The notes beneath the pieces are model-generated. The model was not told the origin of the DNA, did no database searches, and was given only the letters and a program-made list of their open reading frames with translations. Positions 21,218-27,227 of a stretch of 33,647 bases of DNA are shown here, piece by piece. Numbering within the stretch: position 1 is the stretch's first letter; the number at the start of each line of letters is the position of its first letter. Origin of the DNA: Prolixibacteraceae bacterium (GTDB lineage Bacteria; Bacteroidota; Bacteroidia; Bacteroidales; Prolixibacteraceae); the NCBI GenBank assembly GCA_025355875.1, contig JANXYV010000176.1:1-33647 (forward strand), given 5' to 3'. The position numbers were made by a program, and so were the translations under genes.

Positions 21218-21958
21218 TTACAGACCCATCAGGCCTAACACCCGATCGATATCTTCAGGTGTGTCAATGCAATGACTGTCATGCCCGGTAACTGCAACTT
21301 TTATTTTAAAACCATTCTCCAGCCAGCGAAGTTGTTCGAGCGACTCTGCAATTTCGAGCGATGAAGGTTTTAATTGCGTGATTTTCTCTAAAATATCACT
21401 TCTGTAGCCATACAGGCCTACGTGCCTGTAATACGTGAATTTTTCGTACCATTCTTTTCGGTCAACTCCTTTGATGTATGGAATTACCATCCGGCTGAAA
21501 AATAAAGCTTCCATGTTCGAATTCAGCGTCACTTTCACTTCTCCTTCGCTGAAGAGTAAATCATACGAATCGACTGAAGTAACCAGCGTAGCCAGCTCGG
21601 TTGCTTCCTCCTGAAGAACATTGGCTAAAAGATCAATTTGAGAAGGGTCTATGAATGGCTCATCGCCCTGAATATTAATTACGTGACTGTATGAAACTCC
21701 TGATTTTTGAAGCGCTTCAAAACAACGATCAGTGCCGCTTGGATGTTCCGGTTGGGTCATGAAAGCGATGCCGCCAAACTCTTCCACATGCTTTTTGATC
21801 CGTTCATCATCGGTTGCTACAACCACTTCAGCCAGCATTCCTGACTTTTTTGCCTGCATATAGACTCTTTGGATCATGCTCATTCCTTTGATGTCGATCA
21901 AAGGTTTTCCGGGAAAACGCGAAGAAGCGTAACGTGCAGGTATAACTCCTAAAATCAT
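21218..21958 (-). CDS. kdsB: CMP-Kdo / CMP-8-amino-Kdo synthetase
   Basis: 3-deoxy-manno-octulosonate cytidylyltransferase: couples CTP and the octulosonic acid to give the CMP-sugar used by lipid A Kdo transferases. 246 residues, the usual length. The nucleotide-binding N-terminus MILGVIPARYASSRFPGKPL is almost consensus, and INIQGDEPF and the late metal-site region HCIDTPEDIDRV are present. It is the last gene of the six-gene operon and lies 6 bases after the KdsC-like gene. Because kdnA and kdnB lead the operon, the natural substrate is probably Kdo8N, as reported for the Shewanella enzyme; the sequence alone cannot separate that from Kdo. Confidence 0.93.
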   Translation of the reverse strand: MILGVIPARYASSRFPGKPLIDIKGMSMIQRVYMQAKKSGMLAEVVVATDDERIKKHVEEFGGIAFMTQPEHPSGTDRCFEALQKSGVSYSHVINIQGDEPFIDPSQIDLLANVLQEEATELATLVTSVDSYDLLFSEGEVKVTLNSNMEALFFSRMVIPYIKGVDRKEWYEKFTYYRHVGLYGYRSDILEKITQLKPSSLEIAESLEQLRWLENGFKIKVAVTGHDSHCIDTPEDIDRVLGLMGL

Positions 21959-21964
21959 CTGGAA

Positions 21965-22678
21965 TCAGGGATTTAGTTCAATTGTATTTCCGTTTTCGAA
22001 GGTGAAGTATTTCGTGGTTACTTCATTTCTGGTTGTAATGTATTCTCGGTATAAATCAGAGTAGGCCATACGTTCAGTAATTACTTGCTCAAACACTCCT
22101 TTCAAACCAATCATTAGTTCGCACGCTTCACGAACAGCGAAGTTCCCCGATTCAGAACCGGTAACGTAGTCAGCAATCTTGTTTTTAATCACAAACTGAT
22201 TGAACAAAGGATTTGCCTTGCGCTGGACGAATATCCGAAGCCCGGCCATCTCAGCAAACGAAAGATCAAGCACATCATCAAAAACGAAAGCAATTTCGCC
22301 CGGTTTTAGATTGAAATGTTCGCAAAAATGATTGAGCGCATCGGTTTTGTTTGCAATTTTATAATAGCATGCACTGAAACATTCACGCCTGGTCCACGAA
22401 AATGAGGCACTGTTTCTTTCTCCTGAAATCACTGCCACACAGGGTATCCGGCGATGAGTCATGTAACCTGAAAACCGCAAAAGGTTAGTTCCCATCGAAT
22501 CCACTTCGCTGAAAAGGCTGGTTCCGTCTTGATCTTTGGTGCCATTATTAAATACCCCATCCCAATCAAACACAAATGCTTTGATGCCATCCAGTTTGGT
22601 GGCAATATTTTCCGGAGGAATCACGAAAATCCCTCCGATTTTTGTAAAGGCGAGTGAGATATGATCGGTTTCAGTCAT
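21965..22678 (-). CDS. kdsC: KdsC-like HAD phosphatase (Kdo-8-phosphate phosphatase candidate)
   Basis: HAD-superfamily phosphatase of 237 residues expected to remove the phosphate from Kdo-8-phosphate. Motif I is FDWDGVFNNG with D38 and D40, motif II is S85 in VAVISGERN, motif III is K111 in NKTDAL, and motif IV is FVFDDVLDLS (D134, D135, D138). It is divergent from textbook KdsC: motif I is usually DVDGVLTDG, motif IV usually GDDLNDL, and here there is an N-terminal extension of about 30 residues and a C-terminal tail of about 50. It follows the transaldolase/CBS gene by 8 bases and precedes kdsB by 6. Position plus HAD motifs make the Kdo role likely. Confidence 0.8.
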   Translation of the reverse strand: MTETDHISLAFTKIGGIFVIPPENIATKLDGIKAFVFDWDGVFNNGTKDQDGTSLFSEVDSMGTNLLRFSGYMTHRRIPCVAVISGERNSASFSWTRRECFSACYYKIANKTDALNHFCEHFNLKPGEIAFVFDDVLDLSFAEMAGLRIFVQRKANPLFNQFVIKNKIADYVTGSESGNFAVREACELMIGLKGVFEQVITERMAYSDLYREYITTRNEVTTKYFTFENGNTIELNP

Positions 22679-22686
22679 GAATCGAT

Positions 22687-23697
22687 TTATCCTTTTAAAT
22701 CCTGAATGTCAAGCATCCCAATAGGGTTACCCTTGCTGGTAACTAAAATTGTATCCACATTGGTTTTTTTGAAAATCGCAGCAGCTTCGTTCAGTAAGGA
22801 ATCTGCATCCACCGAAATAGGATTGTTATATTTAAAATCGCTCATTTTTTTGTTCAAAAAGTCAGGTCCGCCTGCTGGCAAAGACCTGCGCAGGTCACCA
22901 TCAGTGAAAACTCCTTTCAACGAACCATTTTGATCAACAATAGTGATGCAGCCGAAACCATATTCAGTCATTTTGATGATCGCATCAGAAAGTTTGGTAT
23001 CGGCGCTAACCAATGGATTCTGGCCATTCATGGCACCCTTCACTTTGACTGTCATCAAACGGGTATCTGTAATAAACTGATCGTGACCAATCGTGGTGAA
23101 ATTATTCTCGGTAAGCTGTTTGAGAATCTTCATCGGAACAGTAATGTTATGGACACCCAGATTGATCGCATTCCGGACGTGTTCGGTGTGACGAACCGAT
23201 GAAAACATGATCTTGGTATCGTATCCGTAGTTTTTCACCGCTGCTACACACTGTTCCACTAAAGTTAAGGCATCGTGCCCCTGATCCTGCAAACGGCCAA
23301 CAAGGATACAAACATAAGTTGCTCCGGCTTGCATAGCCATGTATGCTTGCTGTAAAGTGTACACCAGATGCAGATTTACCATTATTCCTTTTTTGCGCAA
23401 CATGGCACAGGCACGGACTCCTTCGAGCGAAACCGGAATTTTGAATACTGTTTTCTTTGGATCCAGCCCCAGAGCCAACTGACGCTCAGCTTCTTTCAAA
23501 ATTTCTTCAGCGGTACTTCCCAATGCTTCGATCATCAGCACCGGAACAATTTTGGAGATTTTTACGATGGTACCGTCGATATCGGTAATCCCTTCGCGCT
23601 GCATGAAGGTAGGAGTGGTCGTCAAGCCGTTGAGGAAGCCTAGTCTAAAAGCTTCTTCGATTTCGGCTACGTTTGCTGAATCAAGATATAGTTCCAT
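22687..23697 (-). CDS. TalC-like transaldolase fused to a C-terminal CBS pair
   Basis: Residues 1-215 are a small (TalC/FSA-type) transaldolase: MELYLDSAN with Asp6, Schiff-base lysine K86 in VFKIPVS, AGATYVCILVGRLQDQGHD and SSVRHTEHV. Residues 220-336 form two CBS motifs (NPLVSADTKLSDAI to GVFTDGDLRRS, and NPISVDADSLLNEA to PIGMLDIQDL). Aligned by eye with E. coli FSA, the asparagine of TTNPS is Thr28, Thr109 is His110, and Tyr131 is Leu132, while the Gln59 position is Glu57 as in true transaldolases. So the catalytic lysine and aspartate are kept but the pocket is changed. It lies between kdsA and the KdsC-like gene, where KdsD, itself a SIS+CBS protein, would fit. It may supply arabinose 5-phosphate or a related precursor; this is inference. 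Confidence 0.85.
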   Translation of the reverse strand: MELYLDSANVAEIEEAFRLGFLNGLTTTPTFMQREGITDIDGTIVKISKIVPVLMIEALGSTAEEILKEAERQLALGLDPKKTVFKIPVSLEGVRACAMLRKKGIMVNLHLVYTLQQAYMAMQAGATYVCILVGRLQDQGHDALTLVEQCVAAVKNYGYDTKIMFSSVRHTEHVRNAINLGVHNITVPMKILKQLTENNFTTIGHDQFITDTRLMTVKVKGAMNGQNPLVSADTKLSDAIIKMTEYGFGCITIVDQNGSLKGVFTDGDLRRSLPAGGPDFLNKKMSDFKYNNPISVDADSLLNEAAAIFKKTNVDTILVTSKGNPIGMLDIQDLKG

Positions 23698-23772: not shown

Positions 23773-24603
23773 TTAGCGATATTTTACTTCCAGGAGGTGT
23801 ATTTCGATGAGCGGTTTCAGAAATTCCTCCAGATCATAGACACAAAGCTGGCTGGCCGCATCACACAAGGCTTTTTCGGGTTCGGGATGAGTTTCAATAA
23901 AAATGCCGTCCACACCGGCGGCAACACCCGATCTCGACAAAACCGGCAAAAACTCACGAGCGCCACCCTTTGCATCAGCGCTTGGGATTCCGTATTTGCG
24001 GATGGCATGAGTAATGTCAAAAACCACCGGGTATCCCAGATTATTCAAGTGAAAGAAGGCCCGGGGATCAACGATCAAATCGTTATAACCAAATGTATAT
24101 CCACGTTCTGTTAAAATTACCTGGTCGTTTCCTGCATCGATACATTTCTGCAGGGGATGTTTCATGTTATCCGGAGCCAGGAACTGCCCATGTTTGATAT
24201 TCACAACCTTACCCGTTTTTGCCGCCGCTACCAACAAGGTTGACTGCATGCACAGATAGGCCGGAATTTGTAATACATCGCAAACTTCGCCTGCAACTTT
24301 CGCTTGTTCAGGATAATGAATGTCGGTGAGAATAGGAAAGCCGAACTGTTCTTTTACCCTGGCAAGTATTTTTAATCCCACATCCAAACCCGGACCGTCG
24401 TAATATTTCAGACTGCTGCGGTTATCTTTCTGAAAAGAAGATTTATATATGATTTGAATCTTCATGCGTTCGGAAACTTCTTTAAGCTTCTCCGCAGTTT
24501 TCATCATGATCAGTTCGTCTTCGATCACACATGGACCAGAAATGACAAACAGATCATTGCTGCCACAATCAATGTTTCCGACTTTAACGATCTTCTTTTC
24601 CAT
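23773..24603 (-). CDS. kdsA: 3-deoxy-8-phosphooctulonate synthase (Kdo-8-phosphate synthase)
   Basis: Condenses phosphoenolpyruvate and D-arabinose 5-phosphate to Kdo-8-phosphate. 276 residues, family length. The motif YKSSFQKDNRSS (family: KSSFDKANRSS), LTDIHYPEQ, IPAYLCMQSTLL and the late HPEPEKALCDAASQL are all typical. The GPCVIED motif places a cysteine (C25) where E. coli KdsA has asparagine; this cysteine marks the metal-dependent class (as in Aquifex). It follows kdnB by 3 bases, implying tight coupling, and precedes the transaldolase/CBS gene by 75 bases. Confidence 0.94.
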   Translation of the reverse strand: MEKKIVKVGNIDCGSNDLFVISGPCVIEDELIMMKTAEKLKEVSERMKIQIIYKSSFQKDNRSSLKYYDGPGLDVGLKILARVKEQFGFPILTDIHYPEQAKVAGEVCDVLQIPAYLCMQSTLLVAAAKTGKVVNIKHGQFLAPDNMKHPLQKCIDAGNDQVILTERGYTFGYNDLIVDPRAFFHLNNLGYPVVFDITHAIRKYGIPSADAKGGAREFLPVLSRSGVAAGVDGIFIETHPEPEKALCDAASQLCVYDLEEFLKPLIEIHLLEVKYR

Positions 24604-24606
24604 GGT

Positions 24607-25686
24607 TTACAATCTCTTATATAACTCTTTTATTGAATCAACCGTCAACTTTTCCTTCCAATCCGATCCGAGGGCATGATTCCACATGTGCGGCAAATTA
24701 TATGCTACCAAGGCCATTTCAGTGATTTGTTCGTCAGTCCAGTTTCTGGATAAACCTTGTGGAAGTTCAACGTTATGGTGGGAAAGCATTTTTTTGAATT
24801 CGGAAACACTTTCTCCATAAAAATCGTCCAGGTGCTGAAAGGCAATACAATTGGCAAAGCAATGACGCATTTTCAGAATTTTGGAAAGGCCGTATGACAA
24901 AGCATGACATGCACCAACTTCGGAATAGGTCAGGCTAAGGCCACCCATCAGGGAAGCAACCATCAACTTTTCATTGTTTTCAGGTGTTTGTCCGCTTCCT
25001 TCATTGACGTAAATATCTCTGCAAAGCTTCAAGGCTTGTTCTGCATAGGCATGACTGAAGGCATTATTCAAAATACCGGTTTCAGATTCGATGCAGTGAA
25101 TATAGGTATCCATGCCGGTGTAAAACCACCAATCGAGCGGAACGGTTTCTGTCAGGTCAGGATCGAGAATGACCTGGTTAAACACTGTCCAGTCACATTT
25201 CAAACCCAATTTCTTTTCAGGACCTGTTAAAACAGCTGTCATGGAACATTCCGCACCTGTTCCTGAAATGGTTGGCACGCCCAGATGATAAATTCCTGGT
25301 TTTTTAATCAGGTTTAAACCCTGGTATTTGGTCGATGAACCTTCGTTGGTAAACATCAGCGAAACGGCCTTGGCAATATCCATGATGCTGCCACCGCCAA
25401 TTCCAACCACTCCGGAAGGTAATCCTTTTGAATTCAAAACCGAATCGCGAATCGTGTCGATTTGTTCGGTAGTTGGTTCCATCACATCCACGTCGATGAA
25501 TAAGATCATATCCTCATTTTTCAGAGGAATGCGGTTTTCCAGCGATTTTCCCTTGAAGTAATGATCGACTACAAAAAGAAAAAACTGATTGTTTTCAACC
25601 CGTTTTTCGGCAAGAATGGAGTCCATTTCATCAAAGCTGCCTCTGCCGAAAACTACTTTATCAATATTTTTGAAATTTTTATGCAT
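24607..25686 (-). CDS. kdnB: Iron-containing alcohol dehydrogenase-like Kdo 8-oxidase
   Basis: A 359-residue iron-dependent alcohol dehydrogenase-fold protein. The nucleotide motif IGGGSIMDIAKA begins at 96, and TISGTGAECS follows at 139-148. Metal ligands are visible as D193 and H197 (GMDTYIHCIES), H261 (GACHALSYGL) and H275. It sits directly between a DegT aminotransferase and kdsA, the gene neighbourhood of kdnB of Shewanella oneidensis, whose product oxidises C8 of Kdo to the aldehyde before transamination to 8-amino-Kdo. The family is certain from the sequence; the Kdo 8-oxidase role rests on the kdnA-kdnB-kds context. An alternative is another sugar or polyol dehydrogenase. Confidence 0.85.
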   Translation of the reverse strand: MHKNFKNIDKVVFGRGSFDEMDSILAEKRVENNQFFLFVVDHYFKGKSLENRIPLKNEDMILFIDVDVMEPTTEQIDTIRDSVLNSKGLPSGVVGIGGGSIMDIAKAVSLMFTNEGSSTKYQGLNLIKKPGIYHLGVPTISGTGAECSMTAVLTGPEKKLGLKCDWTVFNQVILDPDLTETVPLDWWFYTGMDTYIHCIESETGILNNAFSHAYAEQALKLCRDIYVNEGSGQTPENNEKLMVASLMGGLSLTYSEVGACHALSYGLSKILKMRHCFANCIAFQHLDDFYGESVSEFKKMLSHHNVELPQGLSRNWTDEQITEMALVAYNLPHMWNHALGSDWKEKLTVDSIKELYKRL

Positions 25687-25734: not shown

Positions 25735-26943
25735 TTAACCCTTTTCGGTGGCCAACGCTTTGGTCACAGATTCCGAAATTTTTGAAGCTAAACCGGTCAC
25801 TTCTTCTATGGTCCAGGTGCAACGGATTCCAAACGAAATTAGCCGCCCGATTACTTGCTGAGATATTGGCAGCTGCAGATGGTTGTAATCCTGTGGTGCA
25901 CCAACCAGATGAATTGGAAGCTTCGATGCACTGTTCAGGTTTTTCAAATGTTCCCATTGGTTAATGAAATGGTACATATTGGTATGCCAATAATTAAAAC
26001 CTCCGACACCTGCTTTGTTCAGTTCAACAACCGTTCGCTTTGCCGCTTCAGTATCCGGGAGAAGAAGATTTAAAAATGTTGCAGAATCACCTTTTGGATC
26101 AGCTATATGAGCAAATTGGATACCCGGAACCTTTGACAGTTCAGATACCAGAATGGATTTGTTCGTTCTGTTCTTTTCGATAATTCCAGGAACCCTTCGT
26201 GTCTGGGCAACTCCGATAGCAGCGTGCAATTCACTGATCCGGTAGTTAAAACCGACGATCGGATGATTCTCCATACCGCGATTGTTCCCGATATGATCAT
26301 GTCCGTGGTCGGAATATGAATCTGCCAGGTGATAAACTTCTTCGTCATTGGTGACCAGAACGCCGCCTTCGCCTGCGGTGGCAATCTTAAAGAAGTCGAA
26401 TGAATAACTTCCGGTTTTACCAAACAAGCCAACTGCCGTTCCTTTATAACTCGAACCAAAAGCCTGCCCGGCATCTTCAACGAGTATCAGATTGTGCTCA
26501 TTCACAACCTTCATAATGGCATCCATGTTGGCCATTCCGCCGCACATATGGACCAAACATATTGCCTTCGTTTTTGGAGTTAGCGCATTTAGGATTCCTT
26601 CGGCGCTCAAACACAAGGTTTCATCAATTTCAGCAAAAACTGGTAGAGCACCAACCCATAGAACTGCTTCCACTGAAGCAATATAGGTAAACGGAGGAAC
26701 AATGACCTCGTCACCTGCCCCAATTCCTGCCGCGGCCAGGGCGGTGGCGATTGCGGTCGAACCACTCGATACAGCATGGGCATAGCGGGCACCGGTTATT
26801 TTTTTCACTTCAGCCTCAAATTCCAGTGCTTTCCAATGATTGTTGCGAATATGTTCGTGATTGAAGCGGAATAAACATCCTGATTCCATGACGTCATTCA
26901 CTTCTTTCCGCTCTTCAGCGCCAAATAATTCTGTACCCGGCAT
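25735..26943 (-). CDS. kdnA: DegT/DnrJ-type PLP aminotransferase, 8-amino-Kdo transaminase
   Basis: Transfers an amino group to a sugar aldehyde or ketone; here probably to the C8 aldehyde of oxidised Kdo, giving Kdo8N. 402 residues from the chosen start. The PLP lysine is K186 in GSYSFDFFKIATAGEGG, the cofactor aspartate is D157 in VEDAGQAFG, and SSGSTAIATAL (59-69) contacts phosphate. The frame is open upstream to an ATG at 27072, but I place the start at 26943: the protein then begins MPGTELFGAEERKEV as in relatives, and a TATCTTTG promoter box lies between the two candidates. First gene of the six-gene operon, 48 bases before kdnB and divergent from priA. Confidence 0.86.
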   Translation of the reverse strand: MPGTELFGAEERKEVNDVMESGCLFRFNHEHIRNNHWKALEFEAEVKKITGARYAHAVSSGSTAIATALAAAGIGAGDEVIVPPFTYIASVEAVLWVGALPVFAEIDETLCLSAEGILNALTPKTKAICLVHMCGGMANMDAIMKVVNEHNLILVEDAGQAFGSSYKGTAVGLFGKTGSYSFDFFKIATAGEGGVLVTNDEEVYHLADSYSDHGHDHIGNNRGMENHPIVGFNYRISELHAAIGVAQTRRVPGIIEKNRTNKSILVSELSKVPGIQFAHIADPKGDSATFLNLLLPDTEAAKRTVVELNKAGVGGFNYWHTNMYHFINQWEHLKNLNSASKLPIHLVGAPQDYNHLQLPISQQVIGRLISFGIRCTWTIEEVTGLASKISESVTKALATEKG

Positions 26944-26994: not shown

Positions 26995-27227
26995 AGAATA
27001 TTGTACTTCCCGAAAGTGATTTCTATCCACAATCCGGCTACTTTTTAACGAATCGTTCCAAATCCATGGCAAAAAGTGACTTTGCCGGAATAAAATTCAA
27101 TCGATTTAAGCTGAATTTGAAATTGCCACCTGAAATGCAAAATCAAGCACAACCGACGAAGCAGATTTTCTTTGACATTCTTTGAGGCTTGTATCCGAAT
27201 CAAAAATCTTTTTCGGTATTTTGCAGC

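Follow-up and report, generated by a model that had tools for sequence, protein, structure and literature searches.

The window analysed here is a stretch of 33,647 nucleotides of contig JANXYV010000176.1 from the genome of a Prolixibacteraceae bacterium. Its minus strand carries a run of genes in the order kdnA-like, kdnB-like, kdsA, a transaldolase/FSA-CBS fusion, kdsC-like and kdsB, with gaps of 48, 3, 75, 8 and 6 bp (Table 1). A preliminary description of this DNA had placed the fusion inside a Kdo-type operon, and it does lie between kdsA, 75 bp upstream, and the kdsC-like gene, 8 bp downstream. The plus strand of 22687-23697 is interrupted by stops. The names kdnA and kdnB are presumed from the Shewanella Kdo8N work and do not come from a family model. 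The listed reading frame of the kdnA-like gene starts at a TTG at 27072, the likely start, as judged by eye, being the internal ATG at 26943. For the kdsC-like protein, Pfam gives no family at E 1e-3, and its scores lie far under the KdsC cut-offs; from its sequence it is divergent and probably a Kdo8P phosphatase.

Table 1. Genes and domains of the Kdo operon in the window.
Feature	Coordinates	Strand	Evidence
kdsB (CMP-Kdo or CMP-Kdo8N synthetase)	21218..21958	-	NCBIfam
kdsC-like HAD phosphatase, divergent	21965..22678	-	PRK09484 (KdsC) 2e-13, below cut-off
Transaldolase/FSA-CBS fusion, 336 aa, ATG start	22687..23697	-	ORF list, Pfam/NCBIfam, survey
CBS pair of the fusion, residues 215-334, most like that of KdsD/KpsF/GutQ	22696..23055	-	Pfam, NCBIfam, solved chains
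TAL_FSA barrel of the fusion, residues 3-201	23095..23691	-	Pfam, AF2, Foldseek, residue invariance
kdsA (Kdo8P synthase), divergent subtype with KDNRSS and Met119	23773..24603	-	NCBIfam
kdnB-like iron alcohol dehydrogenase, proposed Kdo 8-oxidase	24607..25686	-	Fe-ADH by Pfam
kdnA-like DegT/DnrJ aminotransferase	25735..26943	-	Pfam

The presence of a TalC/FSA-like domain and two CBS motifs in one reading frame, as first described, is confirmed by Pfam, which finds TAL_FSA in residues 3-201 (E 4e-35, 122 bits against a cut-off of 27) and two CBS stretches behind it (E 1.1e-16). No SIS isomerase domain was matched by Pfam in the protein. Its membership of the TAL/FSA superfamily follows from the Pfam cut-off, the Schiff-base lysine Lys86 and Foldseek, where the top matches to the AF2 model (mean pLDDT 85.8, pTM 0.61, residues 198-214 below 50) are transaldolases. 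Among NCBIfam models the transaldolase part is nearest to FSA/TalC. The fold and the Schiff-base lysine would be expected of an ordinary transaldolase or fructose 6-phosphate aldolase sitting in the operon by chance. However, on the fructose 6-phosphate aldolase equivalog TIGR00875, the best equivalog score, the fusion reaches 162.6 bits against a cut-off of 245.95 and is not a member.

The CBS pair resembles that of the arabinose 5-phosphate (A5P) isomerases. The C-terminal part of TIGR00393 (KpsF/GutQ; E 3.1e-18), of which positions 149-261 align with residues 210-324 of the fusion, and the KdsD model PRK10892 (E 8.9e-14) outscore every other NCBIfam CBS protein on it. The best matches among solved chains, 4o9k, 3fna and 3k2v, are CBS pairs of proven or putative arabinose 5-phosphate isomerases. 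The best 80 of 238 relatives match the fusion across at least residues 1-334, at 75-82% identity, and this recurrence of the architecture in 80 loci excludes a chance fusion. Two records titled Azovibrio restrictus and Candidatus Saccharibacteria (L031 and L049) carry a Bacteroidota-type fusion and are probably misbinned contigs.

Within about 6 kb of the fusion in these best 80 of 238 loci, many of which end at contig ends, there is a kdsC-like gene in 58, kdsA in 44, kdnB in 41, kdnA in 40, kdsB in 34 and waaA in 16, the waaA representative being identified by profile scan. As neighbours, only Kdo genes occur in 16 or more of the 80 loci; the clusters ranking after them, each present in at most 13, look unrelated on visual inspection. 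In nine of the 80 loci a small ORF (about 138 aa, PIN-like by eye) lies just upstream of the fusion, for example about 440 bp upstream in L052.

In most Gram-negative bacteria the Kdo pathway starts with the formation of A5P. The preliminary description had proposed that the fusion replaces KdsD or supplies KdsA, and had named a normal kdsD in the same genome, with the fusion gene dispensable for LPS, as evidence that would refute this. The assembly that contains the window is 97.9% complete, with 5.18 Mb in 230 contigs, and no KdsD-type isomerase is recognisable in it by searches with PF01380 and TIGR00393. The SIS model PF01380 has five matches: two in one 625-aa frame (C44), which we take to be GlmS by size and layout, a MurQ-like protein (C193, by eye), GmhA and a double-SIS protein resembling GlmS/NagB-II. 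GmhA and the double-SIS protein were identified by profile scans, the C44 frame and the C193 protein by size or by eye. TIGR00393 has two matches, and the better (E 4.7e-18) is far below the cut-off and equal in strength to that of the fusion's own CBS part. A hidden KdsD or SIS-only A5P isomerase was likewise not found in the genome, the doubtful SIS proteins being GmhA and the GlmS/NagB-II-like protein. The genome has one KdsA, that of the window, with a second match far below the cut-off; one WaaA, by profile search; and a separate, ordinary TAL/FSA protein besides the fusion.

The absence of KdsD is not proof that A5P isomerase activity is absent, since eukaryotic enzymes of the GlmS/GFAT type are capable of this isomerisation, and GFATs complement an E. 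coli isomerase mutant (PMC11301363). It is thus conceivable, though quite improbable, that A5P comes from another isomerase, through a side activity of GlmS or through the double-SIS protein (C120), both kinds of protein being encoded in this genome, and that the fusion is an accessory that senses or controls Kdo flux. E. coli has GlmS. Its delta-kdsD delta-gutQ mutant nevertheless needs A5P (PMC11301363).

Two draws of Bacteroidota genomes, each at least 90% complete, were surveyed, 296 from the phylum and 326 from the class; a fusion split over contig ends could escape this survey. In the first, where KdsA was outside the survey, the fusion is found in five genomes, none with a KdsD over the cut-off, while KdsD is found in 208 of 296. 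A KdsD over the cut-off is also lacking from 83 of the 291 fusion-free genomes. Four of the five fusion genomes recur in the second draw. There, matches to the fusion that reach the CBS pair occur in 63 genomes, 62 from residue 1 and one (G504) only from residue 106. The 58 genomes with at least 52% identity were counted, and five of family f59 (37-41%) were kept apart.

A survey of the linkage of this architecture to kdsA had been suggested at the outset, and full KdsA (E <= 1e-94) is present in 57 of the 58 fusion genomes from the class; G363 has KdsA in two pieces on two contigs. KdsD is over the cut-off in two of the 58 (G486 and G543), compared with 176 of the 268 others (Fisher test, 4e-20). 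Among KdsA-positive genomes the figures are 2/57 with the fusion and 171/194 without it (Fisher test, 3e-34). Counted by eye from tables, KdsA (E <= 1e-84) is present in 251 of the 326 genomes, 244 over the curated cut-off and seven of f92 just below it. Of these, 55 have only the fusion, two have the fusion and KdsD, 171 have only KdsD, 22 have a weaker TIGR00393 match and one has none, so that the fusion, KdsD or a weaker KdsD-family match is present in 250 of 251.

To allow for kinship among the genomes, labels were permuted within families only, this stratification being the sole correction for non-independence. For the KdsA-positive members of the 18 families holding the close fusion (121 genomes), 10.1 co-occurrences are expected and two are seen (exact P 1.6e-8). 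Seven families (f4, f10, f12, f61, f67, f88 and f100) have both fusion-only and KdsD-only members. The fusion and KdsD are near-completely mutually exclusive among KdsA-bearing genomes, also inside families. An accessory role of the fusion beside another isomerase gives no reason for such an exclusion within families.

Neither the fusion nor a KdsD over the cut-off is present in 87 of the 326 genomes, comprising 63 without full KdsA, one with a KdsA fragment, 22 with the weaker match and G494. That KdsD is often missing where there is no fusion either counts against the replacement reading, as does the presence of both genes in G486 and G543. The 22 KdsA-positive genomes with only a weaker TIGR00393 match, at 1e-40 to 1e-59 (G230, G238, G380, G454, G537 and 17 others), perhaps have SIS-only, divergent or fragmentary A5P isomerases. 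G494, an assembly of 250 contigs, has a canonical-type KdsA (45%) and lacks both the fusion and a KdsD over the cut-off. This is probably due to a gap in the assembly, as its genus mates G442, G508 and G551 have KdsD. Among the 75 genomes outside the 251, five have KdsD (G337, G396, G399, G472 and G507), six have the fusion (G363 and the five of f59), one (G308) has a fragment of a window-type KdsA (residues 1-150), and 63 are without KdsA, fusion and KdsD over the cut-off.

The fusion is not confined to Kdo8N operons. A kdnB-like gene (E < 1e-90) is present in 55 of the 326 class genomes, including 43 of the 58 with the fusion. In the survey 15 of the 58 fusion genomes have no kdnB-like gene, and 12 of the 55 kdnB-like genomes have no fusion, 11 of these 12 having KdsD; a Kdo8N-specific role as the sole explanation was rejected on these two counts. 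In 12 of the 15 fusion genomes without kdnB that were viewed, kdsA is in the fetched stretch in 11 and adjoins the fusion in 10.

A site from which kdsD may have been lost can be recognised. KdsD is encoded directly upstream of recQ in all three controls (G249, G033 and G150), and it is absent from the 1.5 kb upstream of recQ in each of the 27 fusion genomes examined. In the genome of the window (L247, contig C55) tatC adjoins recQ with no kdsD between them. The two genomes that have both the fusion and KdsD, G486 and G543, have the order tatC-kdsD-recQ, recQ being named by eye. The tatC-recQ junction is therefore apparently, from this gene order, the emptied ancestral kdsD slot, and the two genomes with both genes may represent an intermediate stage or else contamination of the bins.

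A natural exchange of the two genes is seen in G249, a genome of one 7.03 Mb contig. It has the window's gene order, with kdnA at 71% identity, kdnB at 70%, kdsA at 74%, the kdsC-like gene at 52% and kdsB at 54%, and the fusion is absent both between kdsA and the kdsC-like gene and elsewhere in the genome. A KdsD with SIS and CBS domains (320 bits) is encoded away from the Kdo operon. The KdsA of G249 is of the window's subtype and is its only one, being the single match at E <= 1e-40, a threshold that would reveal a canonical KdsA. No other single observation argues as strongly that the fusion would form the product of KdsD, A5P.

The KdsA proteins linked to the fusion form, by sequence, a distinct subtype with nine near-fixed differences between 66 window-type rows and 46 other KdsA rows. 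The motif KANRSS is changed to KDNRSS (Ala to Asp), Arg119 to Met and Lys138 to His, with six more. Together with the remodelled donor pocket of the transaldolase domain, described below, this might be taken to mean that the fusion makes a different aldose phosphate, from which the divergent KdsA forms a Kdo isomer or analogue, in which case it would belong to a variant of the pathway instead of standing in for KdsD. A different KdsA substrate is unlikely, however, because in G249, where the fusion is absent, the sole KdsA is of the same subtype and occurs together with KdsD. In addition, G418 and G388 carry the fusion, no KdsD over the cut-off and both KdsA types, the second being canonical-type (42%), and KdsB-like, WaaA and often KdnA/KdnB-like genes are held in common.

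The active site was compared in 127 fusion rows, 111 of them distinct and several being copies of the window's own, after rows not spanning residues 5-325 were dropped. Asp6, Glu57, Lys86, Asn108, Arg135, Ser167 and Arg169 are invariant in 127/127, and so are Thr28, His110, Cys130 and Leu132. The Asp6 and Lys86 of the preliminary description are thus at their named positions in every row. In all 22 plain Bacteroidota TAL/FSA proteins kept for comparison Asp6 and Lys86 are accompanied by Asn28, Thr110, Ser130 and Phe132, so the changes at 28, 110 and 132 that had been pointed out at the start hold throughout. The fusion does not match the transaldolase/FSA donor site (Asn28, Thr110, Ser130 or Ala, Phe/Tyr132), FsaA having Ala at 130 (A129 in PMC3962226) and Tyr at 132. 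We take Arg135, Arg169 and Ser167 to hold the acceptor phosphate and residues 28, 110, 130 and 132 to shape the donor and proton-transfer side, as in transaldolases. PMC3962226 describes a phosphate site of two arginines and one serine, and names R181, F178 and S176/A129 of TalB/FSA. As the phosphate residues are kept and the donor-side residues changed, a phosphorylated acceptor such as glyceraldehyde 3-phosphate (G3P) would be retained and the donor side rebuilt.

The replacement of Asn28, Thr110, Ser130 and Phe132 in every fusion row, the separate ordinary transaldolase in the same genome, the low equivalog score and the tight association with KdsA make an ordinary transaldolase placed in the operon by chance very improbable. 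The invariance of the catalytic residues in 127/127 rows also counts against a merely accessory protein. In the first CBS motif Thr265 is present in 127/127 rows. Asp268, presumably the usual ribose contact, is Asp in only 89/127, and no CBS ligand is argued for this reason.

The five f59 homologues (L157, L158, L159, L160 and L161, in genomes G336, G390, G365, G435 and G414; 37-41%) come from genomes without KdsA. They have Arg or Ser at position 86, have lost Arg135 and Arg169, and keep the CBS pair. The Thr26-Pro29 motif is wholly lost in four, and L159 keeps Thr27 and Pro29. Judged by these residues, the catalytic site is decayed where KdsA is gone, and the f59 proteins are probable non-catalytic descendants. 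They adjoin genes for an M61-like peptidase and an alkaline-phosphatase-like protein, both named by eye.

The best explanation is that the fusion is probably a non-orthologous replacement of KdsD and the A5P source for KdsA, acting by class I aldolase chemistry. The original proposal of KdsD replacement and KdsA supply is upheld by the comparative evidence of mutual exclusion, the recQ site, G249 and the lack of a recognisable KdsD in the source genome. What is shown directly is gene content, linkage, the exclusion of KdsD and the invariance of the catalytic residues, while A5P as the product, the donor and the role of the CBS pair are inferred. The fusion would supply D-arabinose 5-phosphate to the neighbouring KdsA, which would then make Kdo (and, with KdnB/KdnA, Kdo8N) for placement on lipid A by WaaA. 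Lys86 would form the Schiff base, Arg135 and Arg169 would bind the phosphate of a G3P-like aldehyde, and the donor pocket would be rebuilt through Thr28, His110, Cys130 and Leu132. The bond made or broken is most likely C2-C3 of A5P.

Aldol addition of glycolaldehyde to G3P is a possible route, and the likeliest of those considered. That FSA accepts glycolaldehyde as donor with G3P to give A5P, as stated in the preliminary description, is borne out by PMC6298115, in which FsaA and FsaB have glycolaldehyde as the preferred donor, G3P as the preferred acceptor and A5P as the product. The fold and its stereochemistry therefore suit A5P. The weakness of the aldol version is that there is no evident source of glycolaldehyde in quantity, and no glycolaldehyde-making gene recurs among the neighbours present in 16 or more of the best 80 loci. 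More tentatively, the same enamine could serve to epimerise ribose 5-phosphate (R5P) at C2. Lys86 would then form its Schiff base with R5P, and the C2-C3 bond would be cleaved and re-formed from the opposite face; in a variant, His110 would deprotonate and reprotonate C2 in the enamine. A5P would be released to KdsA without free glycolaldehyde. According to PMC9947464, FsaA, unlike TalB F178Y, yields no R5P by-product; the R5P formed by TalB F178Y implies that both C2 epimers are within reach of the TalB scaffold. Some other A5P-forming chemistry is unlikely. A Schiff-base isomerisation of Ru5P to A5P was rejected on chemical reasoning, as a C2 imine cannot pass to C1 and hydrolyse to the aldose.

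The KdsD-type CBS pair would be an inherited module for regulation or oligomerisation, and may sense a nucleotide or the product. It has 28-36% identity to the CBS pairs of eleven Bacteroidota KdsD proteins over 107-124 columns, far above shuffles. The fusion may therefore stem from a KdsD CBS pair joined to TalC. Trees of the fusion and of recQ from 24 genomes disagree by eye (G388, G091 and G553), and the Spearman correlation of the identities is 0.34. Transfer is therefore likely, and vertical inheritance only was rejected on this disagreement, which was judged by eye, without support values or a formal test. The history suggested is one in which the fusion moved between genomes by transfer and KdsD was then lost.

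The fusion shares with KdsD/KpsF/GutQ (TIGR00393) the type of C-terminal CBS pair, the partner KdsA and the proposed product A5P. These proteins have a SIS domain, whereas the fusion has a TAL/FSA barrel with a Schiff-base lysine, so its chemistry must differ from that of KdsD. With FsaA/FsaB and the TalC-type transaldolases (TIGR00875, PF00923) it shares the fold, Asp6, Glu57 (TAL-type), Lys86, Ser167, Arg135 and Arg169. These have Asn, Thr, Ser and Phe for Thr28, His110, Cys130 and Leu132, and the fusion alone has a C-terminal CBS pair and a Kdo operon. The Kdo8N operon, for which we take Shewanella kdnA/kdnB as the comparison, is like that of the window in having kdnA-like and kdnB-like genes with kdsA and kdsB, and unlike it in that the window's operon carries the fusion, which also occurs without kdnB (15/58). 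The A5P isomerase of Bacteroides fragilis, a SIS isomerase not known to have CBS domains, similarly departs from the canonical KdsD in Bacteroidota but is not an aldolase. It served as the positive control in PMC11301363.

In the open-access literature (subscription journals being mostly outside the search), no paper was found that joins transaldolase, arabinose 5-phosphate and a CBS domain, and nothing that joins A5P isomerase, kdsD and Bacteroidetes. Among the Kdo and transaldolase papers listed, no transaldolase-CBS protein appears in a title or abstract. To our knowledge, the A5P-forming enzymes described so far are SIS-type ketose-aldose isomerases. If the proposed role is correct, the TAL-CBS enzyme would be a second, chemically different solution to A5P formation, and would account for Kdo in the 55 of 251 KdsA-bearing class genomes without a recognisable KdsD. 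Were the epimerase reading correct, the reaction would be new to the TAL/FSA family and would give Kdo synthesis a second natural entry. Synthetic carbon-conserving pathways obtain A5P by borrowing FSA (PMC6298115, PMC9947464). The fusion is perhaps an aldolase already shaped by nature for A5P.
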